A DNA stretch of 64,000 nt from an uncultured Roseibium sp. Its GTDB lineage: Bacteria > Pseudomonadota > Alphaproteobacteria > Rhizobiales > Stappiaceae. The stretch's first letter is position 1; every line of letters begins with the position of its first letter. Location: NCBI RefSeq assembly GCF_947494555.1, contig NZ_CANLVF010000001.1:1-64000 (forward strand), in the 5' to 3' direction. Below the pieces are notes generated by a model. The model ran no database searches and was not told where the DNA came from. It saw only the letters and a program-made list of their open reading frames with translations. This document shows positions 24,193 through 55,479 of the stretch, one piece after another. Position numbers and translations under genes: made by a program.

Positions 24193-24606
24193 TTAGCTTG
24201 TAACGTTTTGATCGTAATAAAAAATCACCCTCAAGAAGCCACCGTCGACCCCTTTTTTGTCCGGCGCCAGCTGGACCGTCATTTGAAACTCTTCCTGGAT
24301 CTTGAAGGGATTCTTGACGGGTGCCCTTCCTGCATAGGCGCCGTCGTCATATTTCAGCTTCACCTTGGTGACCGGTTCGATGTTGCCGGCGAGATTGTCA
24401 CTCAGGTTGAAGGACTTGACCATGACGTGCTGGCTTTGGCTCACGGTGCAGCCGGGAATGTAAACAAAGCCGATCGCGACAACGCTCATGATGCCTGGGA
24501 CAAGAGCCGGAGCCTTTATCTCGCTTGCCGATATGTCGTCGATGAGGAACTCCCCAGGCTCATAGGGACCATAATCGTCGAAATTGAATGTTTGCGCCTG
24601 TGCCAT
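24193..24606 (-). CDS. Unknown 137-residue protein, last gene of the YcaO-TfuA locus
   Basis: I do not recognise the family. The protein has no signal peptide. It is acidic near the N-terminus (FNFDDYGPYEPGEFLIDD) and appears beta-rich in the second half (KVKLKYDDG..., ending GGFLRVIFYYDQNVTS). A single Cys is at IPGCTV. It is followed by the convergent saccharopine-family gene with a 57-bp gap and preceded by the 161-residue gene across 116 bp. Size and position would fit a substrate, carrier or structural protein for the YcaO-TfuA pair, but nothing in the sequence proves this. Confidence 0.7.
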   Translation of the reverse strand: MAQAQTFNFDDYGPYEPGEFLIDDISASEIKAPALVPGIMSVVAIGFVYIPGCTVSQSQHVMVKSFNLSDNLAGNIEPVTKVKLKYDDGAYAGRAPVKNPFKIQEEFQMTVQLAPDKKGVDGGFLRVIFYYDQNVTS

Positions 24607-24722
24607 GTGTTCACCCTTCGGCTTTTGCTGTGCGCGCCGTGCAGACAGTCAGCCTCCAGAGCAACGGAGGCCGCGCAGCGACTGCGATTTGATGCTTTTC
24701 AACCACGAACGAGTTGTCAAAG

Positions 24723-25208
24723 TCAGGAATTCAGGCGTCCTGACCTGTGCGCCATTTGCATGTTGGCGGCATAGGAGTTCGGAGACCTGCGTCCCGGCAG
24801 GTTTGCTTCCAGGATCAGCGTTTCCAGCAAGCCGTCCTCGACCGAGATTTCCGTAGTCCGGGTGAGTTTGTTCATGCGCCAGAATTTCATGGGGCGGTCC
24901 TTCGGCACATAGTTGCCCGGAAGGTCTTCACCCTCTCCCGAGACGACCATGAGTTTTGGTTTCGCCAGTTCGTAGTGGTTGCCTTCATAAATGTACGACT
25001 TGATCAATGCGATCTGCCGGTTGGGGGCGAACACCAGCTGGATGGAAATTCGGCTGAAATCATTGCCGCCGGTGTCGATCTTGACATCCGCGGCGCTGCT
25101 GCTCTTGATCCCGGAAATGTTCATGCCGACCAGAATGATCTCGGCAGGATCATAATACGGATCCGGTTGGATCATAGGAAGCTGATCATTCGAGTTCTCA
25201 TCGGACAT
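24723..25208 (-). CDS. Unknown 161-residue protein in the YcaO-TfuA locus
   Basis: I do not recognise the family. It starts at ATG 25208 and has a short polar, acidic N-terminus (MSDENSNDQLPMIQPDPYYD). Alternating hydrophobic segments suggest beta structure (AEIILVGMNISGI, RISIQLVFAP, ALIKSYIYEG). There is no Cys and no signal peptide. It ends in a basic polar tail (LPGRRSPNSYAANMQMAHRS). It lies 37 bp after the metalloprotease gene, so co-transcription is likely. It shares general character with the 137-residue neighbour but no clear sequence identity. Confidence 0.7.
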   Translation of the reverse strand: MSDENSNDQLPMIQPDPYYDPAEIILVGMNISGIKSSSAADVKIDTGGNDFSRISIQLVFAPNRQIALIKSYIYEGNHYELAKPKLMVVSGEGEDLPGNYVPKDRPMKFWRMNKLTRTTEISVEDGLLETLILEANLPGRRSPNSYAANMQMAHRSGRLNS

Positions 25209-25245
25209 TTGTTAGTCCCCCTTCTTTCTTCGTGTCACGCAAGGC

Positions 25246-26451
25246 TCAGGTTCGAACGACGATCTCTCGCCATTCCAGGTTTTCCATCAGGATATCGCCG
25301 GCTTCTTTTTCGCCCATCTCGTCGAACTGATCGGCTATTGCCGACCCGGCAACGGCGTAATTCAATGTGTTCGGATCAAGCGTGCTCCAAGATCGCGCAA
25401 TCGCCGATCCAAGCAGATCCCGGGCGTTTTCCAGCGTGGATTTTAAAAGAAAAGCGCGTGCTTCAAACGCTTCGGCAAAGCGGGCGTTGATCAACTCTAT
25501 TTCGTGGTGACCGAGTTCAAAGAGGCGGTCATGGCTTATGTCGTCAGGCAGGTCGACAAGATTTTTTTCCATCGCGCTTCGATGGAAGAGTTCCACCAGC
25601 GTGTCGAATATCGCGCCCGTGAAGGGTTTGGACAGGTCGTGAACAGCATCGCTGACCGTGCTCATTTTCCGGTCGTTGCACGCGGTGCGGATCTGACGGT
25701 CGCCTGCAAGTTCGGCAATGCGGTTCAACTCGTTCATCGTCAGAAGATTGCCGCGGGTCGATCGCAACAGCCGATCGAGCACACTGTCGAAATGAAGAAG
25801 CGAAATGAGCGCGATGAGGTCAGAGACACTCTCGTGGTAACCGAAATACTGCCTGTTCGCCTGCACGGTCGGCGTGCCCATTTCCGCGAAAATGAGCGCG
25901 TGACCGAATTCGTGGGCGATCACGTCGAAATTCAACGCATAGGGAAACGCGGCGTCCCGGTCATTCAGCTCTGTGCCGAATTCCATGTAACCGTAGCCGG
26001 ATTGTGCATTGTTCCAGTTGACCTGCGGGATGATCTCCAGACGTTCGTAAGTCTGCGAAAAGTGCCAGACGATTTCGTGTCCGAGATAGCTCTCCCAGAT
26101 GTCAAGGATGCGCCTGAGCGAAGCAAACACATGCGCGCTGACAAACTGGCGGCTCGATGGGTCGAGATGGTCGAAGTGCCCGTCCGGCCCAGCCTCGGCG
26201 GGTGGAAAAGCTGCGCCGACGAACGGTGGCTGAAAAGGATACTCGTAAACCGGTTTTTCAAATAGCGGATCGATCACGTACATGCGCCGATCGGCCGGAC
26301 CAGCCTGGATCTCGTCCGGCGGCGTGCTGATCCAGACTGTTTCAGGTTTTTCGTAGCCCTCCAGATGGGGGACCTGGGGGTAGATCAGAAATCGCGTTCC
26401 CAGACTTCCGGTCTCAGGTGAAACTGATTGCTGGTCCAGATAGAAACTCAA
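25246..26451 (-). CDS. Thermolysin-like (gluzincin) zinc metalloprotease without signal peptide
   Basis: The 401-residue protein has NFDVIAHEFGHALIFAE, with zinc ligands H180 and H184 and catalytic E181, then YHESVSDL with E207 and D211. This HExxH plus ExxxD arrangement is the M4/thermolysin layout. No signal peptide or propeptide is visible, so it is probably cytoplasmic or exported by a non-Sec route. The only usable start is TTG 26451 with GAGG upstream; the frame is open only to about codon -13. It lies between tfuA and two small unknown genes. It could process a YcaO-TfuA product, or be itself a modified protein. Confidence 0.8.
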   Translation of the reverse strand: MSFYLDQQSVSPETGSLGTRFLIYPQVPHLEGYEKPETVWISTPPDEIQAGPADRRMYVIDPLFEKPVYEYPFQPPFVGAAFPPAEAGPDGHFDHLDPSSRQFVSAHVFASLRRILDIWESYLGHEIVWHFSQTYERLEIIPQVNWNNAQSGYGYMEFGTELNDRDAAFPYALNFDVIAHEFGHALIFAEMGTPTVQANRQYFGYHESVSDLIALISLLHFDSVLDRLLRSTRGNLLTMNELNRIAELAGDRQIRTACNDRKMSTVSDAVHDLSKPFTGAIFDTLVELFHRSAMEKNLVDLPDDISHDRLFELGHHEIELINARFAEAFEARAFLLKSTLENARDLLGSAIARSWSTLDPNTLNYAVAGSAIADQFDEMGEKEAGDILMENLEWREIVVRT

Positions 26452-26621
26452 ATCGGCCTCGACAAAGCTGATGTAAAACCATCCGGTTCAAACAAGTCAG
26501 AATTAAAGGTGGAGCCTCGTTCAATCTTGGTGCGATACTGGTTTGTATTTCCTAGGTCGAACTTGACTATTTGGAGATCGGATCACCGTATGTATTTGTT
26601 ACTCTAGGTAATTCTTGGAGG

Positions 26622-27383
26622 CTACCAATGAACGTCTAGCGTGTCCAATGAAAAACCTGCGTCGGTCAAATCCTTCAAGAACGCATCTGTATAAACGAAC
26701 TTTTCTGCCGGCTCGGGCTCAGGCCAGCTGCTGGCTTGCTGGCGATCGCGAAGTTCAATTAGGAGGAGACAGGCGTCTTGCGCTTTCTGTGATCGGTTCA
26801 AGACGCTGAGAAGATCGGCGAGACCATCGGTTTCCGCAGTCGCCGCAGCAGACAGGATGTTTGCCAGGGTCCGCTTCGTATAGTGAAGATTTTCCGCAAT
26901 CCGCGACAGCTCGGCAGCCGTTTCACCCGATATGAGTTTGTCTCTTCTGGCCTGTGCGAACCTCCTTCTCAGATCGACGAGCGCTTCGGTCAGTGCGGCT
27001 GCGTCCAATTCAGGTGGAGCATGGAGCACGGCAACCGCATCGTCCGGAAGGAGCGGGTAACGGCGCAGCCACCTGTAGATCAACCCGCGCCCATGCATGC
27101 CGAAGGATGCGAGTTCCGCCGCTCTCAGGGCACCCATGCTTGATGCGCCGAAGATGACCGCTCCTCGGTCCATTGCCCAGAGAATTTCCTTGTGGCGCAC
27201 GGCCGGTACGCCCTGGAACAAGCCGTCGATCAGGGCGATAACACATTTGCCGTGCTGACGAACCGCTTCCACAAGGTCACCTTGCGCGGCGGGATGCCGA
27301 AGCTCGGCCTCCAACCCGTCCGGAAGTCCGGATGGATCAAGGCTGGGACCCGCGAAAACAATGATGGGGCGCTTCTGGCTCAT
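26622..27383 (-). CDS. tfuA: TfuA-like protein, partner of YcaO
   Basis: The 253-residue protein carries the TfuA core motif FGASSMGALRAAEL (78-91), followed by GRGLIYRWLRRYPLLPDDAVA. TfuA proteins act with YcaO enzymes, as in trifolitoxin, thioviridamide-type peptides and thioamidation of methyl-CoM reductase. They are thought to deliver sulfide or help form the thioamide. The ATG overlaps the YcaO stop by 4 bp, so the two are translationally coupled. Confidence 0.9.
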   Translation of the reverse strand: MSQKRPIIVFAGPSLDPSGLPDGLEAELRHPAAQGDLVEAVRQHGKCVIALIDGLFQGVPAVRHKEILWAMDRGAVIFGASSMGALRAAELASFGMHGRGLIYRWLRRYPLLPDDAVAVLHAPPELDAAALTEALVDLRRRFAQARRDKLISGETAAELSRIAENLHYTKRTLANILSAAATAETDGLADLLSVLNRSQKAQDACLLLIELRDRQQASSWPEPEPAEKFVYTDAFLKDLTDAGFSLDTLDVHW

Positions 27384-28558
27384 GTGCTGACTGCCCCCGG
27401 TATGCCGAGTGTTACGACACGGGTGATGAAAACGGGAATACCCGTGTCTTCCATCAGCCTGACCGAAACGGCTGTCAGGCCTTCTTCTTTCAATGCAGTG
27501 GCAAGGGCGAATGGACTGTCTTCCCTCGGTTCTGCCTCGGGCGACAATCGTCTATCGGTTGCCTTGCTCATTTGTGCGCGTTCAAAGGCAAGGAATTCTG
27601 CGTCCGCCCGCCGTGGGTAGTATTCCCACGTGATATCTTCCCGGCTCCCGGCAATAACCGATGCCCTTGTCTGGATTGCTTCCAATATGGCGGCTCGAAC
27701 CGCGCCGTCGACCGAGCCGCGGCAGGCAAAACCGTCCGCTGGAAAGGGCAGCGAAGTCGCTGAATTCTCCGCATCGAGCAGACGTGCCCAGACCACCGGG
27801 AACCCGCCGGCGGACGGACAATCATGGACCGTGCAAAGCAATCCGGTGGCCGCCAGACGTTCAAGCAGTTGGCGTGTTTGCGGTTCAACCATCTGGGTGC
27901 AGTCGAAGCGGTGTTTTTCGAAGAAGCCATGAATGTTCATCGCCCGCGACGTGCCCAGTCGCTCCAGAGTCTCGAACAAAGCCTGTGTCAGCGCCTCATC
28001 TGCCGTCGCCCCGCCGCCGAGGCCGGTGGTCGTTCTCATAAAGGGTGAAAGCGCATGCTCGGAAGCTGGCGTATAGTCAGTGCTGACAAGTGCGGCGGGC
28101 ACCAGGACTTGCTCTCCAGACAGAAGTTCCGTTCCACTAACGAAGGAAATCGTGGTCCCGGCCCAATCTGGATTTGCATCCGGAAAAAGGTGATGGCTGA
28201 GTCTTTCACGGGCTTGCGTGCCATAGACCGCCGAAGGTGTCGCCCGGGTTTCTGTCTCCGGATCAAGATGCTCGCCAGCATAGGTTTCAAGCGCTTCCAT
28301 GGTGGACGCGACCGCAGCCTCAGCAAGTGTCAGACCCTTGCCCTGGTTGACGGCGTTTGATCTCGCAAGGGGGCGAATCGCCTGAACAACGGGGATGCCG
28401 ACCCTGTCGAGACCGGTAACATCAGCGAGCCTTGAAAGGCCGAATGATCCGAGATGCGGCAAAAGCCGCTTCAAATAGGTGTTCGCAGGATAGTGTCGGC
28501 CCGGCGGTTGCGTATCTTCCGGAACCGCGATTTGAAACTGGCCGTCCTCTTGCATCAT
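27380..28558 (-). CDS. ycaO: YcaO-domain protein (ATP-dependent backbone-modifying enzyme, TfuA-associated type)
   Basis: YcaO enzymes phosphorylate a backbone amide to form azolines, amidines or thioamides. In the 392 residues counted from ATG 28558 the ATP/Mg-binding pattern is visible: S85, E88 and E91 (ASTMEALETYAGEH), then E188, Q192, E196, E199 and R200 (DEALTQALFETLERLG), then AAILEAIQTRASVIAGSRED. The Sx3Ex2E wording and IAGSRED resemble the TfuA-partnered group. There is no PxPxP C-terminus. No E1-like/ocin-ThiF partner is near, which points to thioamide rather than azoline chemistry. The start two bases after the cyclase stop is my choice; a longer frame to 28639 exists. Confidence 0.88.
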   Translation of the reverse strand: MMQEDGQFQIAVPEDTQPPGRHYPANTYLKRLLPHLGSFGLSRLADVTGLDRVGIPVVQAIRPLARSNAVNQGKGLTLAEAAVASTMEALETYAGEHLDPETETRATPSAVYGTQARERLSHHLFPDANPDWAGTTISFVSGTELLSGEQVLVPAALVSTDYTPASEHALSPFMRTTTGLGGGATADEALTQALFETLERLGTSRAMNIHGFFEKHRFDCTQMVEPQTRQLLERLAATGLLCTVHDCPSAGGFPVVWARLLDAENSATSLPFPADGFACRGSVDGAVRAAILEAIQTRASVIAGSREDITWEYYPRRADAEFLAFERAQMSKATDRRLSPEAEPREDSPFALATALKEEGLTAVSVRLMEDTGIPVFITRVVTLGIPGAVST

Positions 28559-28559
28559 A

Positions 28560-31500
28560 TCAGGCCAGGATCCCGGCCAGTAGGCTGAGGGCGCGTTCCC
28601 TCTCACGTCCGTTCTCAAGGTCTTGCAGAATTTCGCCAATCTGATTTCCCAGCTCCGGGCCGGTCATTTTGTCCGGCAATATCCTGGCCTTGTCGACAAG
28701 CGTGCGAAGGGTCAGCACCGTGGCACCCTGCTGCGCTGAGATCTCTTCCGCGCGAGCCAAATCTTCAGCAATCCGCTTTTCATCGTAGGCGGTCGTGCTG
28801 GTCAGTCTGGCACGCCGCCGGTAAAGCTCGGCAAGCCAGAATGCGTGGCCGGCCTCCTCCGCGCGTTCGATCGCGGAACTGACCAGCCGGAGACCATCTT
28901 CCTGTTTCCCGAGTTGGCCATCGAGTTCAGCAGCCATCTCCAGGTAAACCGGAAAATCCTCTTCGGTTCCGATTTCCTGTTGGATAGCCAGTCCTTGCGC
29001 CAGCGCTTCTCTGCCGTGCAATGGGTCCCCGGCCATCCCGTTTGCCCATCCGCCGAATATCAGGCTTTTTGCTTCAAGAGACTTGAGGTCATGTTCCTTG
29101 GCGGTGTCGCGCATTTGCCGCGCCAGGCGCGCGACCTGATCAATGTCTCCCCTGTAACGATGGAGCATGATCCCGATATCGAGCGCATGGCAGTTGCTGC
29201 CGACATGGTCAATATGCCGTGCCCAGTGCTCCGCCTGTTCAAGATGCGTCAGGGCTGTCTCGGTGTGACCCATGAACCACGAGGACAGCGCCCGTTCACC
29301 AAGTCCGCACACTCTCGCGTCATGGCCACCGTAGCGGGTCCTGTGGTCGAGTGCCTCGTCCTCGCTATAGAGCTCGAGGCCTTTTGTAATCGCATTCAGG
29401 CAATCGGTATGCTGACCCGTGTTGAATGCGGTTGCCCATCTGCAATGGAGCGCCTGCAACTCGACTTCCTGATTGTTGGAGCCGGCGAGGTCGGCAAGCA
29501 GCAGTTCTGCTCTTTCACGCTGAACTTTGAAGTTCGGTGCAGTGAACCACCAGCCCCAGTAAAGCGGGAAGCCGGAGGCGCGGTCGCCGTCCCGCTGTTC
29601 GTGAAGCAGCTCCACACCTTTTTGGTAAAGCTTCGAAGCAGCGTCCGATCCCGCGCCCTCTGTCATTGCGACGACAGGCCCGAGCAATTTCAGGATTTCG
29701 AGATTAAGAGAGCTCGCGGCTGCCTTGTCCTTGAGTTTCGCGGTGAGGAGCTCCGCCCGTTTCAAGAGTGCGCGCGCTTCCTGGAGCGCTGATTGCGAGG
29801 ATGCAGACCGGGCGGCGTCGAGATAGTGTTTGATCGCCTCGTTTCGCAATTGGGCCTGTTCGGCGTGCAGAGCCAGTTCAGCGCTTGAAAAGGAACTGCC
29901 GTGCTCAATGTCCTGTGTTGCGATCTGGTACAGCGCGGAATGCAGTGTCCGCTTGTTAGACCGCAAGAGACCCGAATAGGCTGCCTGCTGCACCAGCATA
30001 TGTCGAAAACGATAGGATGCTTCCGCATCGCTCGCGTGCTGTTCGATGAAGCCACCGGCAATCAATTCCTGCAAACTTTCTTCTGCAGTTGCGGGAGCTC
30101 CCGTTGTTGACAGCAGGGCGACGAGCGTCAGCACATTGAAACTGCGGCCGATAACGCTGGCAGCCTGTGCAACGAATTTCGCCGGGCCAAGGGTGCCGAG
30201 ACGCGCAGCGAGAAGGTCCTGCAGGCTGGCGGTTTCGTCTGAATCGAACAGTTTTTCCCACATTGCTTCGTCGAGCGCATCGTCCGCGCCACGGTCGATC
30301 ACAAATCGGGTCAGTTCCTCGGCGAAGAGCGGGACGCCATCACACCGTGTGGCGATCGCCTCAACCAGTTTTTGCGGCAGTCGCGTCGCGCCGGCCATAT
30401 TCTCGATCAACTCGATGATGCTGGCGGAACCCAGCCGTGTCAGATGCAGCGATGAAAAATGGCCATCACCATGCCAGCGATCGTCGGGAGGGTTCCTTGA
30501 TGTCACAATCACGAAGACAGGTGCGGATTTGATCCGTTCGAGCAATTGCAAGGCGATTTCCAACGTCTGGCTGTCCGCCCAGTGCAAGTCTTCAATCTTC
30601 ATGACGCACGGTTTCACGCTCGCAATCGCCATGACCGCATCCGCCAGTGTTTCGACGGCTGAGTGGGTGAAATCGGTGAGGTTGGGACTATCGCCCTGTT
30701 GTGATGGTGACAGGGGCGCCAGCAGATAGGCCAGCGCTTCGAAAAATTCGGCCGGATGTGTGCCCGGGAGCGCCAATGCGGCCCGGATCGTTTCAACAGA
30801 CGGATTTTGGTAGTCGAATTCCGGATCGTGCTGCTGCAGCACGTCGCGAAGACTTCGGATCACGGGGTAATAAGGCGTGTCCTGGCTTGCCGGTTCGCAC
30901 TGAAAATCCAGTATGTGCGCATCGTCCTTGCCCGCCTGCTCAAGGATCTGATGGCACAGCCGCGATTTGCCGATCCCCGGTTCACCGTGCACATAAAGGG
31001 CCTGACCGTTTCCCGATGCCGCCTCCCGCCATTTTGATATGGCCTCGGAAAACTCCTTCTGACGGGCCAGAAACGGCTGCGCGCTGTTGCGAAGGGTTTC
31101 GAATCGGTCGTTGGTTCTCCGCCGGCCAAGAGGCTGCCAGAGCGCGTGCGGTTCGTTGAAACCTTTCAGGTGCCGGGCACCCAGGCTTTCGTAGTGAAAA
31201 AGCCGCCGCGTCGCCTTGTAGGTCGCGTTTGATACGGCCACGGTGCCGACGCCTGCTTCACCTTGTATTCTCGCCGCGAGTGTCGGTGCTATGCCGACAA
31301 TTTCATCACGCGTTGCGAGCGCACCACTGCCTGCTTGTCCGGCCACGGCGGTACCTGTTGCGATACCGACGCGGATCATGATGGGCTGGTCGAAATCCTT
31401 CTGGACTTCCACACATTCGCGCAATATCGCAAGCCCAGCCAGGACGGCCTGCATAGGCGCATCCTCATTCGCAACCGGGTAACCGAAATAAGCGGACCCG

Positions 31501-31709
31501 CCGTCGCCCATAAGCAGGTCCAGATGTCCACCGTTCGCCGCGATCGCGCGGTGAGCCGCCTGGTGGACCGCCTGCTGAATTTCCCGGAAGTCCTCGATGT
31601 CCATGGTGTTGACCATGGTCGTGGATCCGACCATGTCGTAGAACAAGGCTGTGATCTGGCGGCGTTCACCTTTTTCGATATCAAGATCTATCGGGGTGTC
31701 CTGTGCCAT
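28560..31709 (-). CDS. Class III adenylate/guanylate cyclase - STAND ATPase - TPR regulator
   Basis: The 1049-residue protein has three parts. Residues 15-195 are a class III cyclase domain with metal aspartates D25 (FYDMVGST) and D69 (LMGDGG) and RVGIATGTAVAGQ. Residues about 215-560 are an AAA/STAND ATPase with P-loop GEPGIGKS (242-249) and Walker B-like VMKIEDLHWAD. Residues about 600-1040 are helical TPR-like repeats. Such proteins couple a ligand or protein signal to nucleotide production or oligomerisation. It is first in the YcaO-TfuA run; its stop is two bases from the ycaO ATG, so it is part of the locus. Confidence 0.88.
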   Translation of the reverse strand: MAQDTPIDLDIEKGERRQITALFYDMVGSTTMVNTMDIEDFREIQQAVHQAAHRAIAANGGHLDLLMGDGGSAYFGYPVANEDAPMQAVLAGLAILRECVEVQKDFDQPIMIRVGIATGTAVAGQAGSGALATRDEIVGIAPTLAARIQGEAGVGTVAVSNATYKATRRLFHYESLGARHLKGFNEPHALWQPLGRRRTNDRFETLRNSAQPFLARQKEFSEAISKWREAASGNGQALYVHGEPGIGKSRLCHQILEQAGKDDAHILDFQCEPASQDTPYYPVIRSLRDVLQQHDPEFDYQNPSVETIRAALALPGTHPAEFFEALAYLLAPLSPSQQGDSPNLTDFTHSAVETLADAVMAIASVKPCVMKIEDLHWADSQTLEIALQLLERIKSAPVFVIVTSRNPPDDRWHGDGHFSSLHLTRLGSASIIELIENMAGATRLPQKLVEAIATRCDGVPLFAEELTRFVIDRGADDALDEAMWEKLFDSDETASLQDLLAARLGTLGPAKFVAQAASVIGRSFNVLTLVALLSTTGAPATAEESLQELIAGGFIEQHASDAEASYRFRHMLVQQAAYSGLLRSNKRTLHSALYQIATQDIEHGSSFSSAELALHAEQAQLRNEAIKHYLDAARSASSQSALQEARALLKRAELLTAKLKDKAAASSLNLEILKLLGPVVAMTEGAGSDAASKLYQKGVELLHEQRDGDRASGFPLYWGWWFTAPNFKVQRERAELLLADLAGSNNQEVELQALHCRWATAFNTGQHTDCLNAITKGLELYSEDEALDHRTRYGGHDARVCGLGERALSSWFMGHTETALTHLEQAEHWARHIDHVGSNCHALDIGIMLHRYRGDIDQVARLARQMRDTAKEHDLKSLEAKSLIFGGWANGMAGDPLHGREALAQGLAIQQEIGTEEDFPVYLEMAAELDGQLGKQEDGLRLVSSAIERAEEAGHAFWLAELYRRRARLTSTTAYDEKRIAEDLARAEEISAQQGATVLTLRTLVDKARILPDKMTGPELGNQIGEILQDLENGRERERALSLLAGILA

Positions 31710-49221: not shown

Positions 49222-51438
49222 TTACTTGGTTTCGGCAACGAAAACGCCGTCCCACTCAGCTGGGGGCGGCGTTTTCTTGAAGGCTTCGATCCTCAGCCGG
49301 AACGTTTCGGCGAGGCGTGAAAGCTCGTTTTCCCTGTCCTTTTGCACGTCGTCGCAGTGTGACAAGGCCGTGTCCCAATTCTGCGCGCGGTAGTTCTGGA
49401 GCATTTTTTCGAAACTTGCTTTTTGGATCGCGAAGGAGTTCTTGAGCGCAAGGTCCATATCGCCCAAAAGGCAGTAGATCCGCTCCGGCTCCTTTTTGCC
49501 CTTGACCCGTATCAGGTCGGCTTCCACGAGGGCGAAGAGATCCATGACCTTATGGGCGGTGTTGTTGCCGATCAGGATCGTAACGCCATAGGTCTTGGTC
49601 TGTCCTTCCAATCTTGCGGCAAGGTTGACCGAGTCACCAAGCACCGAATAGTCGAAGCGGAACTCCGACCCCATGTTTCCGACGACACAGTCGCCGGTGT
49701 TGATGCCGACGCCAACGTTCAACGGAAAGAAAGTGTGTCCTTCAGTGTCCGCTTCCTGTTTGCGCTCCACGTTGATGGCGCGCATGCGCCGGACCATCAA
49801 AAGGGCTGCCTCGCATGCGTGGATTTCCTGGCTGTCATCGTCAAGGGGCGCGTTCCAGAACGCCATGATGGCGTCGCCCATGTATTTGTCGATCGTGCCG
49901 CGTTTTTCCATGATGCCGTTGGAAAGCGGGGTCAGGAACCGGTTCATCAACGCTGTAAGGCCCTGCGGATTGTCTGCAAAACTCTCCGAAATGTTGGTGA
50001 AATTTCGAACATCGGAAAACAGGATCGTCATTTTGCGCCGCTCGCCGCCAAGAGCGAGATTCTCTGGATTTTTTGCGATCTGTTCAACGTAGTCCGGTGC
50101 CAGATACTGCGCGAAGGCGGACCGGATTTCCTGGCGCTGAATCTCTTCGCGGCGGTAGTTGATGAAGACCAGAAGAAAAAACACGCTCAGGCTGGTGAAA
50201 AGCGGATAGATGGCATCAAGCAGCAGCTTTTCACTGGAAAAAAGATACCAGCTGCCCCCCACCCAGCTCGCTGCCAGGACAAATCCAAACGCCATTACCG
50301 GGAGTGCGCCGAGAATGGGAACCAGAATGATCGTCAGCAGTGACAGGACCGCCGCGGCTACGAGTTCTGCACCGAGAGCGTAATTGGGACGTTTCAGAAA
50401 AGACCCGCTCAGGATGTTTTCCAGAATTTGTGCATGGACTTCGACGCCCGGCATAGTGGGATTGAGGGGCGTTGCCTTCAGGTCGAGCAATCCGGTGGCC
50501 GATGGGCCGACCAGAACGAGATGGTCTCGAATGCGCGCGGGGTCAAATGTGCCATTTGCAATGTCGGAAGCAGAGACAAAGCGCAGCGGATTGGAAGGCG
50601 TATAGTGGACCCAGATTCGTCCGTTTCGATCCGTGGGGACCTCCGCACCGCCGACGACAACGGATGAAATACCCGCTTCGTCGCTTTTGACCGCAAATGC
50701 GTCTTGTCCGGTCGCAACGCGCAGAAGCTCCACGCTTAGGGCAGGTTGGATCTTTCCGTCCGCAATGACGGTCAGCGCAGCCCGCCGAACAATCCCGTCC
50801 GGGTCAGGGTAGATGGAAAAAAGTCCCTTGCCGGCAGCGGCATCTTCAAGAAGTTCGATATTCCTGAGGAGCTGCGGATACTCGAACATGTATTTTTTGG
50901 GGTCCGGACCGAGAAGCGCAACGGGGGTTTGAACCTGTTCGTTTCGGTCGGTCTCGACAAAATCGACCCCGCCGGCCTGGCCGACAACGACACGCATCCG
51001 GCGCATGGTGTCGCTCATGATCCTGTCGGTGCTGGGCAAGGCGGCCAACTCCTGCCGCAGCGCTTCGCTCAGTCCGCCGACGGACTTGCTATATTGGTCT
51101 GGCGACAATCGATCCGGCTCGGGGAAGACAATATCAAAAGCCACCGCGACACCGCCGGCTTGTGCAATATTCTGCAGGATTGTCGCCAATGTGGAGCGGG
51201 CCCAGGGCCACTGCCCGAGTTCGGCAAGGCTCTTCTCGTCGATGTCGACGATCGCGACCGGAAGTTTTTGAAAATCGCGCGGCTTGAGAACCTGATAGTA
51301 GTCGAAGGTTTTCAGGCGGATGAGTTCGACGACGTAGGGGTCGATGACACGCACAGCAAGCAGGAAAAGAAGCAGCAAAAGGGCGGACAGGCGCGCGCCG
51401 CCGAAAACCGAGTTCAGTTTTCCAATCAATCGTCTCAT
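49222..51438 (-). CDS. CHASE2-domain adenylate cyclase
   Basis: The 738-residue membrane-bound class III cyclase has one N-terminal span (LSALLLLLFLLAVRVIDPYV). An extracytoplasmic CHASE2 sensor follows (VAIVDIDEKSLAELGQWPWA, FDIVFPEPDRLSPDQ) and then three further spans at about 355-430. The cyclase domain is at about 470-650 (ILFSDVRNFTNISESFADNP, KYMGDAIMAFWNAPLDD, VGVGINTGDCVVGNMGSEFR). It is 51 bp downstream of the large secreted protein gene on the same strand, so the two are probably one operon. The CHASE2 ligand is unknown. Confidence 0.92.
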   Translation of the reverse strand: MRRLIGKLNSVFGGARLSALLLLLFLLAVRVIDPYVVELIRLKTFDYYQVLKPRDFQKLPVAIVDIDEKSLAELGQWPWARSTLATILQNIAQAGGVAVAFDIVFPEPDRLSPDQYSKSVGGLSEALRQELAALPSTDRIMSDTMRRMRVVVGQAGGVDFVETDRNEQVQTPVALLGPDPKKYMFEYPQLLRNIELLEDAAAGKGLFSIYPDPDGIVRRAALTVIADGKIQPALSVELLRVATGQDAFAVKSDEAGISSVVVGGAEVPTDRNGRIWVHYTPSNPLRFVSASDIANGTFDPARIRDHLVLVGPSATGLLDLKATPLNPTMPGVEVHAQILENILSGSFLKRPNYALGAELVAAAVLSLLTIILVPILGALPVMAFGFVLAASWVGGSWYLFSSEKLLLDAIYPLFTSLSVFFLLVFINYRREEIQRQEIRSAFAQYLAPDYVEQIAKNPENLALGGERRKMTILFSDVRNFTNISESFADNPQGLTALMNRFLTPLSNGIMEKRGTIDKYMGDAIMAFWNAPLDDDSQEIHACEAALLMVRRMRAINVERKQEADTEGHTFFPLNVGVGINTGDCVVGNMGSEFRFDYSVLGDSVNLAARLEGQTKTYGVTILIGNNTAHKVMDLFALVEADLIRVKGKKEPERIYCLLGDMDLALKNSFAIQKASFEKMLQNYRAQNWDTALSHCDDVQKDRENELSRLAETFRLRIEAFKKTPPPAEWDGVFVAETK
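49241..49275. terminator. Bidirectional intrinsic terminator at convergent gene ends
   Basis: AAAACGCCGTCCC (49241-49253) pairs with GGGGCGGCGTTTT (49263-49275), 12 of 13 positions, with T-runs on both strands. It lies inside the last codons of the CHASE2 cyclase (minus strand) and 35 bp after the FAH-gene stop (plus strand). It can end the rightward fucose transcript and may also act at the end of the leftward one. Confidence 0.72.
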
Positions 51439-51489
51439 TCAGCAGAAGGACAGGTCAGAGGCGAATACCAAAAAGCGGCCGTGCGTGGG

Positions 51490-54400
51490 TCATGCCGCGA
51501 CGCTGTCGGTCGCCTGAACCCCGTTATCTGAAAAGACAAAGTCAATGATCCCCCCCGCTTGGACCGATTGAAGTACTGCGACGTCCCTGAAGTCGGACGT
51601 TCCGCCAGTACCATCTTTATCGACGCTCAAAACCGCGTCGTCGCCATTTCGCTCCACCTGAACATAGTCGCCGACGTCGGCGGTATTGAAGTTGGCTTCC
51701 AAGAGTGACGACAGATCAAGCCGGTCTTCGCCAACTTCAAAATCGGCGATGATGTCCGCAAAGTCGTCATGGGACAGAACGAAGGTATCGGCACCACCAC
51801 CGCCGACCAGAGTATCAAGTCCAGCGCCACCATCGAGCGTTTCGCCAAGATCGGTGCCAATCAGGAGATCATTGCCCGCGCCTCCGATAGCCTTTTCGAT
51901 TGTTGTGCCATACGCGATGCCGATGTTGTTGGTCATGCCGTTGACCGATGAATATGCACCCGGGTTCAGATCAATGATCGCGGGCGCATCCCAGCCGGAG
52001 AAATCAAGAACGTCGACACCATCCGCATCGTAGATGGTCAAAACGGGGTCTTCGTTCGCTGCAAAATCATAAATCGATCCGGTCTCGGTGCTGTTGAAGC
52101 CGTAGACGGTATCGCCGGAGCGGGTTTGAGGATTGATCCCGTAGGCCTGCTGAACTGGCGCAATATCCTCCACCATTGGGCTTTGGGCATAGATCCAGAC
52201 ACCGTTTTCGTTCCACCAGCTGATGCCGATGGAGTCTGGCGTCACCGATGACATGACACTTTGGGTCTGGGTGATTGAAGCGGGGGCGTTTTCCAGGCCG
52301 AGGGCATGGCCGGTCTCATGCAGAAGCGCTTGAAATCCGTAGGTGCCGGCGTCGGGCGACAGGGTTTCGGCGACATCGGGGTTCGTAATGATCGTGCTTC
52401 CGGCAGCGGTGTCAAATGTCTCCGCAAAGGCAACGTCTGTCGAGTTCACGAACCTGACCGTGGCGGGTTCGGAGGCACTTGCCTCAGAGATCGTCAGTCC
52501 GGAGACGTCGGCCCAAAGAGACAGTGCGGCAACCGCCGCCATCTGTTGGGCGGGCGTGTAACTTGTCAGGTTATTGCCCGTTTGCGAGACGGAGGGAAAG
52601 GAATAGCTGACCGCGTTCGACGGAAGAACATCGTTAAGTGCAATGCCGTTTGCGGGTGCGCTCAAAACGACCGGCGTCAGGGATTGAGGTGCAGCTGCGC
52701 TCCGGTCGGACACAGGCGCGTAGGCCAGCGCTGCGCTACCTGCCCGAAATCCTGCACCGACGACATCGACCGAGGCCGTTGCCGTATCAAACCCGCCATT
52801 GCCATCGCTTACCGTATATTGAAAAGTGTCGGTGACCGTTTGGCCGGGCGTGAGAAAGTCAAATGCATTGCCGGTGTTATAGACAACCGTACCGTTTTCT
52901 ATTGAAACGGCGGCGCCAAAGGTGCTCGTGGCAGAGACACTCTCCAGAGTGATCGGGTCTCCATCCGAGTCGGACGCATTTTGAAGAAAACGGCCTTGCG
53001 AAAAGGACTGTGTTCCACCCGCCAACACGTCGGTGCCCACGATACCGGCTGTTCCAATTGCCAGCCGCGCACCAAGAGAACCACCGTCGCTTGCATCAAA
53101 GCTGCCGACCTTGAATTCGATGCGATAGGTGCCGGAGATTTCGATCGGCACCTCAATGGACTTTGCATCCTCAAATGTGCCGACCGGGGTCTGTTCAAGA
53201 AAGACCTGGTTGCGCACGCCGGTGTCGATATTGATCAATTCGGCGGTGTGGTAGGCATCATCGACCGAGAAAAAGGATCTGTATTCGAAACTGACGACCT
53301 CTCCTTCAAATGCGCTGAAGTCATCACTGATGAGAGAAGGGCCGAAGACAGTACCCCGCCCGGGTCCATCGCCCCAACTGTCCAGCCAGCCGGAGAACTG
53401 GACAACGGCCACGTTGTCGTCGCCGGGAATGAAAAAGCCAGACTGGTCGACGTCGAACGAGTAGTCGTAATTGTTGGCGATAAACTCACCGTTTGGACCT
53501 GGCTGTGGGCCGGCAACCTGCTGCCAGCCGCTAAAGCCGTCGTCGAAACCACTGTTGCCGCTGCCCGGAGACGTCAGGGCGAAATCGGATGCCACCGGTG
53601 CGTCGTTCATGCCGGTGACCGTGATCGTGACCGTTGCCGGAATTTCCGAAACGAGGCCTGTATTGTCGACGGCTGCGTATTGGAACGTGATTTCTTGTGT
53701 TGTGTTGGCCGTCAGATTGTCGAAATCACCGTTCGTGTCGAACGTGAATGTGCCGTCGGGCGAGACCTCGAGCTTGCCAAGCGACGGGGGCGAAAGCGCA
53801 TAGAGCGTGAGTGTGTCGCCCTGGTCCGGATCGCTCCCAAGAAAGGGTGCGGTGACGCTGCCGTTTTCGTCGACGTTCAGGGCAATGTCATAGACAATCG
53901 GAGGATCTTCCACCGGCTGGATTGTGATCGGCAGATCCGCACTCAGCGTCGTCTCGCCATCGAAGACGGTGAGCGAAAGACCGCCGGTCTCGCTGTTCGG
54001 TGACGGCGTGTAAGTGATGCTTGCCAAAGCCGCGTTGATATCGGCTTCGGAGCCGCTGAAAGCGACTTCCTTGTCGTCAATTCCATCACCGACAAGAAAG
54101 GTCAGTCCGGAAACCTGTGCCAGCGTGACGGTCGATCTTGCGACGATTGTAACGGTACCCTGGCCGTCACCCGGAATTTCGACATTCAATCCGCTGAAGT
54201 TGATCGACTGGTCTTCCTGGGTGACCAGATTAGGTGGCAGAAAGACAAGGAGATCATCGCTGCTCGAGGGCGGCAGGCCGCTGTCGTCGATTGTGTCCGG
54301 CGAGTTCGTGCTGCCGGGCTGCTGACGGCCGTTCGATGGCGGGGGAGCACCGGGGTCCAGCGGAGACGATCCGCCGCCGCCGCTCGAACCTGCAGGCCCG

Positions 54401-55479
54401 TCGGTGGACAGTCCACCACCACCGTTGCCAAGTGGTGACAGATCCGGCGTTCTGAGATCAGGAACGGGGCCACCCTCAATCTGGTTCTGGCCTGCATCTG
54501 TCTGTCCCGGTCCGGTGTCGTCCTGCAGCCCGTCATTGTCATTGGTATTCTGCTGTCCGAGCCCTGCCGCGCCATATGCGGCATAGGCTTGTTGCAGCTG
54601 ACCTTCCACAGCTGCGAATTCAGATGGTGTTCGCGGTGTGATGATCGGTGCCGTGCCGGGGGAGGGAACGAAGAACGTGCTGTCGGTTGTGTTTACCGTG
54701 CCGATCAGCTGACCGGTCACCCGGTCGAACAGTTGATAAGACCCCAGTTGCCCACCCGGATCGAAGGCAAGCGCAAAACGGGTTGCACCATCCAGGGAAC
54801 TGATCTGCACTATTGGCGTCGTGCCCCGGATCCCCATGGTGGCCGTCGGCGTTTCGACGCGCATGTCGCCTGTCGGCGCGACTTGCCCGGTAACGAAAAC
54901 GAAACTCCCCTGAACCAGGTTCATCACCATGGAATTGTCAGAGCCGCCCGGCGAGTAGATCAGTTCATCGAGAACCATCCTGGCATCAGCGGAGAGCGTA
55001 AACAGGGTTTCGTCAACGAAAACGATAACCAGTGAAGACCCGTCGCCGGTTTGAACGACGTCTCCCTGAAAGACGGGATCGCCGGCAGTGAGTGTTGCCG
55101 TCGAGCCATCCGCTCGCTGTGCGGTAACCGTTCCTTCCGAGGATTGAACATTGCCGATGGGCGCCGCAGCAAGGCCCGTTCCTGCCTGCGCGAATTGTGC
55201 AGGCGCAAGCGGACCTGCCAGTCTTGCAACGGTTTCGCCGTCAAGAATGGGACCGTCCGTGGTGACAAGATCCGGTGGCTGCGTCTGCCTGAAATAGTTC
55301 AGGATCATCAGGGAGCCGTGTTCGGGATGCGCGATCAGAAGATCTGGCCCCGCTCGCGTAAAGTCGCCCTGAAAAACAAGGGATGTATTCGCGATTGGCG
55401 CAAGGGTTTCTGAGGCATCCACAACCGCTGTTTTTGCAGTTGCTGGCAGATTAATCCCGATATCCGGAATTTTAGACAC
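51490..55479 (-). CDS. Large type I-secreted RTX protein with LapA-like/FecR N-terminus, cadherin-like repeats and degenerate serralysin-like domain
   Basis: The protein has 1329 residues. Residues about 105-275 are a FecR/LapA retention-module-like domain (IGNVQSSEGTVTAQRADGST, DETLFTLSADARMVLDELIY). Residues 305-405 are a Gly/Pro/Ser/Gln linker. Residues 410-910 are cadherin-like repeats (VTITVTGMNDAPVASDFALT). Residues 940-1115 are a serralysin-like domain with H1054, E1055 and H1058 (LLHETGHALGLEN) and a Met-turn at M1076. The position of the third zinc His is Asn (N1064). RTX glycine repeats follow at 1199-1230 (GGAGNDLL, GGAGLDTL, GGGGADTF). There is no N-terminal Sec signal. The exporter is encoded divergently. 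Confidence 0.85.
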   Translation of the reverse strand: MSKIPDIGINLPATAKTAVVDASETLAPIANTSLVFQGDFTRAGPDLLIAHPEHGSLMILNYFRQTQPPDLVTTDGPILDGETVARLAGPLAPAQFAQAGTGLAAAPIGNVQSSEGTVTAQRADGSTATLTAGDPVFQGDVVQTGDGSSLVIVFVDETLFTLSADARMVLDELIYSPGGSDNSMVMNLVQGSFVFVTGQVAPTGDMRVETPTATMGIRGTTPIVQISSLDGATRFALAFDPGGQLGSYQLFDRVTGQLIGTVNTTDSTFFVPSPGTAPIITPRTPSEFAAVEGQLQQAYAAYGAAGLGQQNTNDNDGLQDDTGPGQTDAGQNQIEGGPVPDLRTPDLSPLGNGGGGLSTDGPAGSSGGGGSSPLDPGAPPPSNGRQQPGSTNSPDTIDDSGLPPSSSDDLLVFLPPNLVTQEDQSINFSGLNVEIPGDGQGTVTIVARSTVTLAQVSGLTFLVGDGIDDKEVAFSGSEADINAALASITYTPSPNSETGGLSLTVFDGETTLSADLPITIQPVEDPPIVYDIALNVDENGSVTAPFLGSDPDQGDTLTLYALSPPSLGKLEVSPDGTFTFDTNGDFDNLTANTTQEITFQYAAVDNTGLVSEIPATVTITVTGMNDAPVASDFALTSPGSGNSGFDDGFSGWQQVAGPQPGPNGEFIANNYDYSFDVDQSGFFIPGDDNVAVVQFSGWLDSWGDGPGRGTVFGPSLISDDFSAFEGEVVSFEYRSFFSVDDAYHTAELINIDTGVRNQVFLEQTPVGTFEDAKSIEVPIEISGTYRIEFKVGSFDASDGGSLGARLAIGTAGIVGTDVLAGGTQSFSQGRFLQNASDSDGDPITLESVSATSTFGAAVSIENGTVVYNTGNAFDFLTPGQTVTDTFQYTVSDGNGGFDTATASVDVVGAGFRAGSAALAYAPVSDRSAAAPQSLTPVVLSAPANGIALNDVLPSNAVSYSFPSVSQTGNNLTSYTPAQQMAAVAALSLWADVSGLTISEASASEPATVRFVNSTDVAFAETFDTAAGSTIITNPDVAETLSPDAGTYGFQALLHETGHALGLENAPASITQTQSVMSSVTPDSIGISWWNENGVWIYAQSPMVEDIAPVQQAYGINPQTRSGDTVYGFNSTETGSIYDFAANEDPVLTIYDADGVDVLDFSGWDAPAIIDLNPGAYSSVNGMTNNIGIAYGTTIEKAIGGAGNDLLIGTDLGETLDGGAGLDTLVGGGGADTFVLSHDDFADIIADFEVGEDRLDLSSLLEANFNTADVGDYVQVERNGDDAVLSVDKDGTGGTSDFRDVAVLQSVQAGGIIDFVFSDNGVQATDSVAA

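Follow-up and report, generated by a model that had tools for sequence, protein, structure and literature searches.

An alphaproteobacterial YcaO-TfuA operon with a thermolysin-like protease and a candidate precursor protein of the folded-leader type

Here we describe an operon of six minus-strand genes from an uncultured Roseibium sp., which encodes a cyclase-STAND-TPR protein, a YcaO and a TfuA protein, a thermolysin (M4)-like metallopeptidase and two small proteins of 161 and 137 amino acids (aa). The operon lies in a stretch of 64,000 nucleotides (contig NZ_CANLVF010000001.1, positions 1 to 64,000, of the 7.02 Mb assembly GCF_947494555.1), which is called the window in the following. We regard it as moderately probable that the operon is a system resembling those for ribosomally synthesized and post-translationally modified peptides (RiPPs), with a precursor carrying a folded leader, thioamidation of its C-terminal tail by YcaO and TfuA, maturation by the M4-type protease and control by the cyclase/STAND protein. 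With greater confidence, the 161-aa protein is likely to be the substrate of the modification enzymes of the operon. The sequence evidence consists of gene content and order, a precursor domain shared between loci, the exchange of tail and repeats, and the conservation of the tail and of the protease active site. The operon contains the following features:

31709-28560, minus strand: cyclase-STAND-TPR protein (operon gene 1), putative sensor/regulator, 1049 aa
28558-27380, minus strand: YcaO, putative backbone-amide-activating enzyme, 392 aa
27383-26622, minus strand: TfuA, putative sulfur-delivery partner, 253 aa
26451-25246, minus strand: thermolysin (M4)-like metallopeptidase, putative maturation protease, 401 aa, TTG start
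25208-24723, minus strand: 161-aa candidate precursor/substrate protein, N-terminal beta domain (about residues 20-136) and conserved C-terminal tail (137-161)
24723-24800, minus strand: tail-coding region, LPGRRSPNSYAANMQMAHRSGRLNS (residues 137-161) and stop codon, candidate YcaO-TfuA core
24606-24193, minus strand: 137-aa beta-sandwich accessory protein of the Roseibium lineage

A check of the open reading frames (ORFs) of the window confirmed all six at these coordinates. The first-pass annotation of this DNA had described them as one run with a 4-bp overlap between YcaO and TfuA, and both points hold on the sequence; the gap of 2 bp that it gave between cyclase and YcaO is 1 bp when counted from the cyclase stop to the first YcaO ATG. 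The remaining gaps amount to 170 bp (TfuA to protease), 37 bp (protease to 161-aa protein) and 116 bp (161-aa to 137-aa protein). A promoter and terminator scan of the operon gave signals at or below chance level.

A protein search with the 161-aa family returned 16 proteins including that of the window, and 15 loci were then retrieved from the genome collection with this family alone. The order cyclase, YcaO, TfuA, protease and 161-aa protein is kept in 15 of 15, with one gene matching in two pieces in three of them (the protease in L004, the cyclase in L009 and YcaO in L011; L numbers denote loci). Thus, the linkage is not due to chance, and it extends beyond the ycaO-tfuA pair, to which synteny might have been confined according to the first-pass annotation. 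Of the six families expected to co-occur, these five do so, whereas the 137-aa family is recognisable by tblastn in only five of the 15 loci. Roseibium, Labrenzia, Rhizobium anhuiense, R. leguminosarum, R. johnstonii 3841 pRL11, Microvirga, Amaricoccus and other alphaproteobacterial or Rhizobiales records host the loci, the named loci closest to that of the window being from Roseibium and Labrenzia. The genes in the R. johnstonii record carry the annotations AAA family ATPase, YcaO-like, TfuA-like and, for three of them, hypothetical protein. In Labrenzia sp. DG1229 (L004, 8692-9946 and 10705-11116), protease and sixth gene are each split in two, by decay or sequencing error. When the own genome and its relatives were surveyed, the 161-aa family was present in 12 of 61 genomes (that of the window, ten congeneric ones and one more from the order), indicating a patchy, accessory trait, and the protease gene was adjacent in all 12 short loci from this survey.

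Further neighbourhoods were collected with the protease family, from 14 of 385 class and 13 of 398 phylum genomes (E<=1e-5) and from 21 of 397 order genomes (E<=1e-40). From these, 27 longer stretches were fetched, leaving out weak protease matches (E > 1e-40). The resulting set of 49 rows comprises the window, the 15 loci of the 161-aa family, L031-L037 and the 27 longer stretches, less one exact duplicate (L008 = L081); near-copies were kept. Short loci (L018-L029, L039 and those of L040-L080 for which a longer stretch was fetched later) and L030, which equals L017, were not counted a second time, and L038, the second YcaO of the own genome, was left out. Because every ORF was taken to begin at its first start codon, N-termini are over-extended, and so are the lengths of the cyclases and of some precursors.

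The first-pass annotation had noted no obvious short precursor peptide. The candidate precursor is the 161-aa protein, which is oversized for a RiPP and whose homologues end in tandem core repeats. It has no Pfam match, and its fold no match in the PDB at E<=0.001 (best 0.28). In four genomes of the same genus, distant homologues align only upstream of the tail. Their loci contain YcaO, TfuA and protease as well (in G023 only a YcaO fragment on a cut contig), and their C-termini consist of seven or eight SGARV-type units in three genomes and of six YSGGKA units in one. Across the 49 rows, the C-terminus is a PGRRSP tail in 25, a tandem repeat in 19 (of 46 readable precursors) and arginine-rich in two (L085, L106), while three rows have no readable precursor (L083, L103 and L105, where contigs are cut short and none was found). 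The repeat units have a period of five (SGARV, SGAKV, SGSKV, SGSRV, RGASV, GGGKV), six (YSGGKA, AVMASR, LVGRSD, MMTGRS-like, SGANL plus one residue) or four (GMNV), with 4-12 copies as counted by script, and Rhizobium plasmids add an SRSGG type of period seven.

Despite these different ends, the precursors share their N-terminal domain. When the 4904 ORFs encoded in the fetched loci were scanned with a profile of the PGRRSP-type N-domain without the tail, 21 of 21 repeat or arginine-rich precursors were recovered, with E values between 1.5e-14 and 0.0019, whereas ORFs of any other kind did not match at E<=1. A profile-profile comparison gave a probability of 98.9%. In a tree of the proteases, the 25 PGRRSP rows form one side of a branch with a support of 100/99, the repeat rows being spread over the rest, and the PGRRSP group further includes two loci on plasmids, from Mesorhizobium and S. 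meliloti, whose tails are variant. The combination of a shared N-domain and an exchangeable C-terminus is that of a linked precursor with leader and core, and suggests a RiPP-like design of the family in which the C-terminus would be the modified core. With lengths of 149-291 aa, some of them over-stated by ORF calling, 46 of 46 precursors exceed 120 aa. They thus lie outside a range of about 20-120 aa for short precursors, which is the search window of RiPPER and not a law of the class.

Separately, a pentapeptide-repeat beta-helix was considered for the repeats and is not favoured: the Pfam Pentapeptide model is marginal and concerns one SGARV precursor (19.8 versus 20.2 bits), and the family has periods of 4, 5, 6 and 7.

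Conservation among the 25 PGRRSP proteins is highest in the tail, which has a mean column identity of 0.75 compared with 0.50 for residues 18-136 and 0.65 for the best stretch of equal length outside the tail; 8 of its 25 positions are invariant in the 25 rows. The tail codons of the window and L005 differ by 13 synonymous and no nonsynonymous changes, and comparison of the window with five Roseibium/Labrenzia relatives gave 3 to 13 synonymous and no nonsynonymous changes (L006: 3 nonsynonymous). AlphaFold2 modelling of the 161-aa protein from 24 sequences (mean predicted local distance difference test score (pLDDT) 76, predicted template modelling score 0.65) places strands from residue 23 onwards and a helix at 127-136. 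The blocks from residue 141 have a pLDDT of 48, 49 and 39. Our reading of the tail as flexible comes from a low-confidence model of a shallow alignment, which is not proof of disorder.

The YcaO protein matches its Pfam family (6.3e-46) and, above cut-off, the TIGR00702 YcaO domain model (121.7 bits). Of the specific models, both under their cut-offs, the McrA-thioamidation model TIGR03266 (114.5 bits) ranks above SagD (68.4 bits), and the better of two PDB matches is MJ1094 (6pe3, E 3e-10). A C-terminal PxPxP motif is the mark of azoline-forming YcaO proteins; it is present in none of the 48 YcaO ORFs, that of the window included (L034 and L011 are fragments). TfuA matches its Pfam family (1.7e-39) and NF033432 with 164.5 bits (cut-off 235.2, not reached), its sole PDB match being the TfuA structure 6xp8 (E 2.9e-20). 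Thus, with the specific NCBIfam models reached only below cut-off, the YcaO appears nearer to the thioamide than to the azoline type, and the earlier assignment of YcaO and TfuA as a thioamide-type pair is upheld, thioamidation itself being the probable activity. In the loci outside a YcaO-less clade described below, YcaO and TfuA are encoded upstream of the protease on the same strand (L087 without a detected YcaO). Counted in favour of the proposed system is a locus of S. meliloti Ak57 pSymB (L113, 1868-6169, plus strand), where a single open frame gives a match to the cyclase-STAND profile and also to that of YcaO, and where the precursor tail is divergent; it is possibly a gene fusion, though the record annotates YcaO alone. 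In four repeat- or arginine-core loci (L096, L032, L085, L104), TfuA has 443-454 aa, and its C-terminal half has no Pfam family above cut-off.

The predicted HExxH/ExxxD thermolysin-like protease is likewise borne out. Residues N148, A149, D176, H180, E181, H184, E207 and D211 are present in 49 of 49 rows, H271 in 48 (one gap) and H206 in 46; we take them to be the equivalents of the zinc and catalytic set of thermolysin. The protein thus resembles family M4 in its catalytic and zinc motifs, but differs in that it stays below the Pfam Peptidase_M4 gathering cut-off (E 0.0012, 19.7 versus 22.4 bits) and in that no signal peptide or propeptide was seen by eye. Its family is large, 1401 of the 7995 candidates that were scored matching at E<=1e-5. 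The protease gene precedes the precursor gene in every locus in which a precursor was found. On a plasmid of Nostoc sp. UHCC 0302 (L114, 6001-7263, plus strand), a protease homologue is encoded beside two ferritin-like proteins and a radical SAM protein.

The first gene of the operon combines Guanylate_cyc (5.8e-12) and AAA_16 (1.1e-19) Pfam matches with a C-terminal region that aligns with the later part of TIGR03903 (TOMM_kin_cyc). The latter match, of 328 bits, would be the argument for a thiazole/oxazole-modified microcin (TOMM) or azoline system of the Burkholderia kinase-cyclase type, which we consider highly improbable. The score is under the cut-off of 705.75, the match starts at model position 279 with positions 1-278 unmatched, YcaO has no PxPxP motif, and TfuA is present. 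Moreover, the match is unspecific because two other places in the same genome, examined as a control, score higher (416 and 348 bits), and it was rejected as proof of a TOMM system. The operon shares with the TOMM kinase/cyclase systems a cyclase-ATPase protein beside a YcaO-family enzyme, but the N-terminal kinase part is unmatched, an azoline partner is not seen, and the precursor family is another one.

A long cyclase-ATPase is encoded upstream of YcaO in 25 of 25 PGRRSP loci (split in L009) and in the repeat-core loci L084, L086 and L107. Among the other 16 repeat-core loci, ten encode a cyclase-family protein (585-629 aa) in the vicinity, usually on the opposite strand. Two of these shorter cyclases were tested and have Pfam cyclase and TPR matches; they match TIGR04510, the cyclase of a putative peptide modification system, weakly and far under the cut-off of 400 (43.7 and 37.2 bits). 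The assignment of gene 1 as a nucleotide cyclase stands as far as the class III fold and both metal-binding Asp motifs are concerned, whereas Thr occupies the position that normally carries the catalytic Asn. Every readable row of the PGRRSP clade (L011 is unreadable) has T, A, V or I in place of the Asn of the usual PNLAAR motif, while L084, L086, L107 and L105 (the last without a readable precursor) retain it. Judged by these residues, the cyclase of the window may bind nucleotide without normal turnover.

The replacement of the catalytic Asn also bears on an anti-phage or conflict system, in which a Pycsar- or Avs-like cyclase/STAND sensor would act with the protease as effector. Such a function is suggested by the STAND-like ATPase and by the PADLOC models of PycC, which the cyclase domain matches weakly (best 3.3e-11), and yet it appears improbable: PADLOC gives no match at E<=0.01 for any of the other five proteins, so that no linked effector model is present, and the Pfam-checked neighbours of the operon are metabolic or regulatory, namely an Oxidored_FMN/FAD protein, LysR, a saccharopine dehydrogenase-like protein, two Lrp-type regulators, a Cys/Met pyridoxal phosphate enzyme and a transketolase-like protein.

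A further alternative is regulated proteolysis, i.e. cleavage of the 161-aa protein under control of the cyclase/STAND protein, with tail or repeats as binding or cleavage element and YcaO-TfuA being optional or having another target. It is prompted by one protease clade on Rhizobium plasmids, of which six loci (L115-L120) were fetched from 20 listed rows. All six retain cyclase, protease and an SRSGG-repeat precursor, and contain no YcaO or TfuA within stretches of 13-21 kb, the rest of those genomes not having been searched; a small protein follows in four (L115, L116, L117, L120). Also consistent with this alternative, the single-linkage homology cluster containing the cyclases covers 39 of the 48 non-window loci, the next family reaching only ten and being ATP-binding cassette-like by eye. 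However, the tree of the sampled proteases, which has a midpoint root and several weak forks, places the YcaO-less clade among YcaO-bearing repeat types, and this suggests loss of YcaO. Elsewhere YcaO and TfuA keep their place before the protease, with a 1-bp gap and a 4-bp overlap in the window, and repeat periods of 4, 5, 6 and 7 fit no single structural repeat. We consider regulated proteolysis rather unlikely.

Several observations nevertheless weigh against a thioamidating, RiPP-like system. The YcaO-less Rhizobium loci, the Nostoc plasmid stretch, in which no precursor was detectable, and L087, where TfuA but no YcaO was detected, imply that the link of the protease to thioamidation does not hold in all lineages, and it is by gene position that protease and precursor cleavage are connected. 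The tail is conserved, unlike the fast-evolving cores of many RiPPs, and its model draws a helix at residues 143-153, disorder being only a low-confidence reading. Furthermore, cyclic-nucleotide output cannot be assumed for a cyclase that lacks the catalytic Asn, and homology clustering of the fetched stretches gave no exporter that is widely common among the loci.

For the thioamide chemistry, the site of modification, the cleavage, the regulation and the location of the product, we infer the following course for the RiPP-like system. The folded N-terminal domain of the 161-aa protein would serve as an oversized leader that docks the modifying enzymes, and the C-terminal tail as the core. At one or more positions of the core, YcaO would use ATP to activate the backbone amide, which sulfide supplied by TfuA would convert to a thioamide. 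The M4-like metallopeptidase would then free the core from the leader and, in the repeat-core relatives, probably also cut between the repeats. Thermolysin-type enzymes favour a bulky hydrophobic residue in P1', of which every repeat unit named above for the 49 rows contains one or more. The cyclase-fold/STAND/TPR protein may sense a signal and control whether the machinery is expressed or assembled, the 137-aa beta-sandwich could be a lineage-specific binding or protective partner, and the product would stay inside the cell or leave it by a general route.

As to the nature of the product, a conserved thioamidated peptide acting as intracellular signal or cofactor, rather than as toxin or antibiotic, would be compatible with this course, and we put it forward tentatively. 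It would fit the recognisable presence of the tail in Roseibium, Rhizobium, Mesorhizobium, Microvirga, Amaricoccus and alphaproteobacterial metagenome-assembled genomes, its invariant positions and the lack of a widely shared exporter. On the other hand, tail conservation could instead reflect enzyme recognition, and the loci are patchy and often on rhizobial plasmids (of 152 plasmid records with a protease match in the plasmid collection, 122 are from Rhizobium). Extending this to the whole class is possible but speculative: thioamidated ribosomal products with large folded precursors, YcaO-TfuA, dedicated protease and cyclase/STAND control might be widespread in Alphaproteobacteria, the clade of the window having replaced the repeats by one conserved 25-residue core that serves as intracellular signal or cofactor and not as antibiotic.

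The 137-aa protein, which had been placed on a par with its 161-aa partner, is a lineage-specific accessory. It has no Pfam match, its family has six database members including itself, and its five tblastn-positive loci are all from Roseibium or Labrenzia. In the rhizobial loci and some further ones, the sixth position is occupied by another small ORF, for which common descent could not be shown. AlphaFold2 predicts an eight-strand beta-sandwich (mean pLDDT 84.6). Foldseek did not identify the fold: its 37 matches at E<=0.001 (best 1.4e-4 with a template modelling (TM) score of 0.40, to unrelated beta-sandwich proteins; TM-scores by query length 0.23-0.46) are assorted proteins. The two small proteins were also compared as possible paralogues, which was rejected (BLASTP E 1.6).

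Two other regions were noted. The second YcaO of the own genome (L038, 9589-10974; G000:C2, about 199.5 kb; Pfam 1.9e-30) has, by eye, two leader-like small ORFs (115 and 104 aa) and a larger B12-type radical SAM-like protein as neighbours and no TfuA BLAST match in its stretch, and it is possibly another RiPP cluster. At 49222-55479 of the window, two large minus-strand ORFs of 738 and 1329 aa resemble, by eye, a CHASE2-type cyclase and a large repeat or adhesin-like protein.

The closest precedent, by analogy, is the thiovarsolin pathway of Streptomyces varsoviensis (varA-Y-T-O). Thiovarsolins derive from repeated APR cores of VarA, require both YcaO and TfuA and are N-acetylated, and the pathway has no specific protease (PMC6511847). 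The likeness is one of design, with YcaO and TfuA beside a precursor with tandem short repeats, and a GNAT-family gene occurs in six repeat-type loci (L031, L033, L034, L082, L096, L102; Pfam on one). In contrast to thiovarsolins, a domain of roughly at least 100 residues precedes the core here, an M4-like protease and a cyclase are neighbours, and the hosts are mainly Alphaproteobacteria. Methanogen McrA thioamidation (PMC5589413) is similar in that the McrA-thioamidation models are the best specific NCBIfam models of both YcaO and TfuA, and differs in that both remain under cut-off, no McrA is expected and a substrate candidate lies within the operon. Recognition of a folded protein instead of a short leader, as proposed here, has a parallel in E. 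coli YcaO, which acts without TfuA on a ribosomal target, the folded protein uL16; in the same account, TfuA is a hydrolase helping to pass on sulfide from ThiS-like carriers (PMC13063428).

According to passages of a 2021 survey, all thioamidated YcaO-TfuA RiPPs then known were from Actinobacteria, over a thousand proteobacterial clusters were counted, and for some Rhizobium, Bradyrhizobium and Nostoc clusters, which may overlap the present loci, other precursor candidates are given; its main text contains the word cyclase 0 times and peptidase once (PMC8120280). RiPPER was used there at standard settings (PMC8120280), and its precursor window of 20-120 aa would exclude all 46 precursors at the lengths called here. 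Our literature searches, judged mostly by titles, gave no recognised description of this gene combination, and we read the operon as a variant, new within the literature searched, in which YcaO-TfuA peptide modification is combined with a thermolysin-type protease of its own.

Overall, the results offer a concrete substrate candidate and a candidate protease for one group of proteobacterial YcaO-TfuA clusters, a family of clusters that would tend to be missed by size-limited precursor mining. They also provide testable cores in culturable Roseibium and rhizobia. Finally, the occurrence of a single conserved core and of tandem repeats within one precursor family would constitute a natural experiment on the target choice of YcaO and TfuA.

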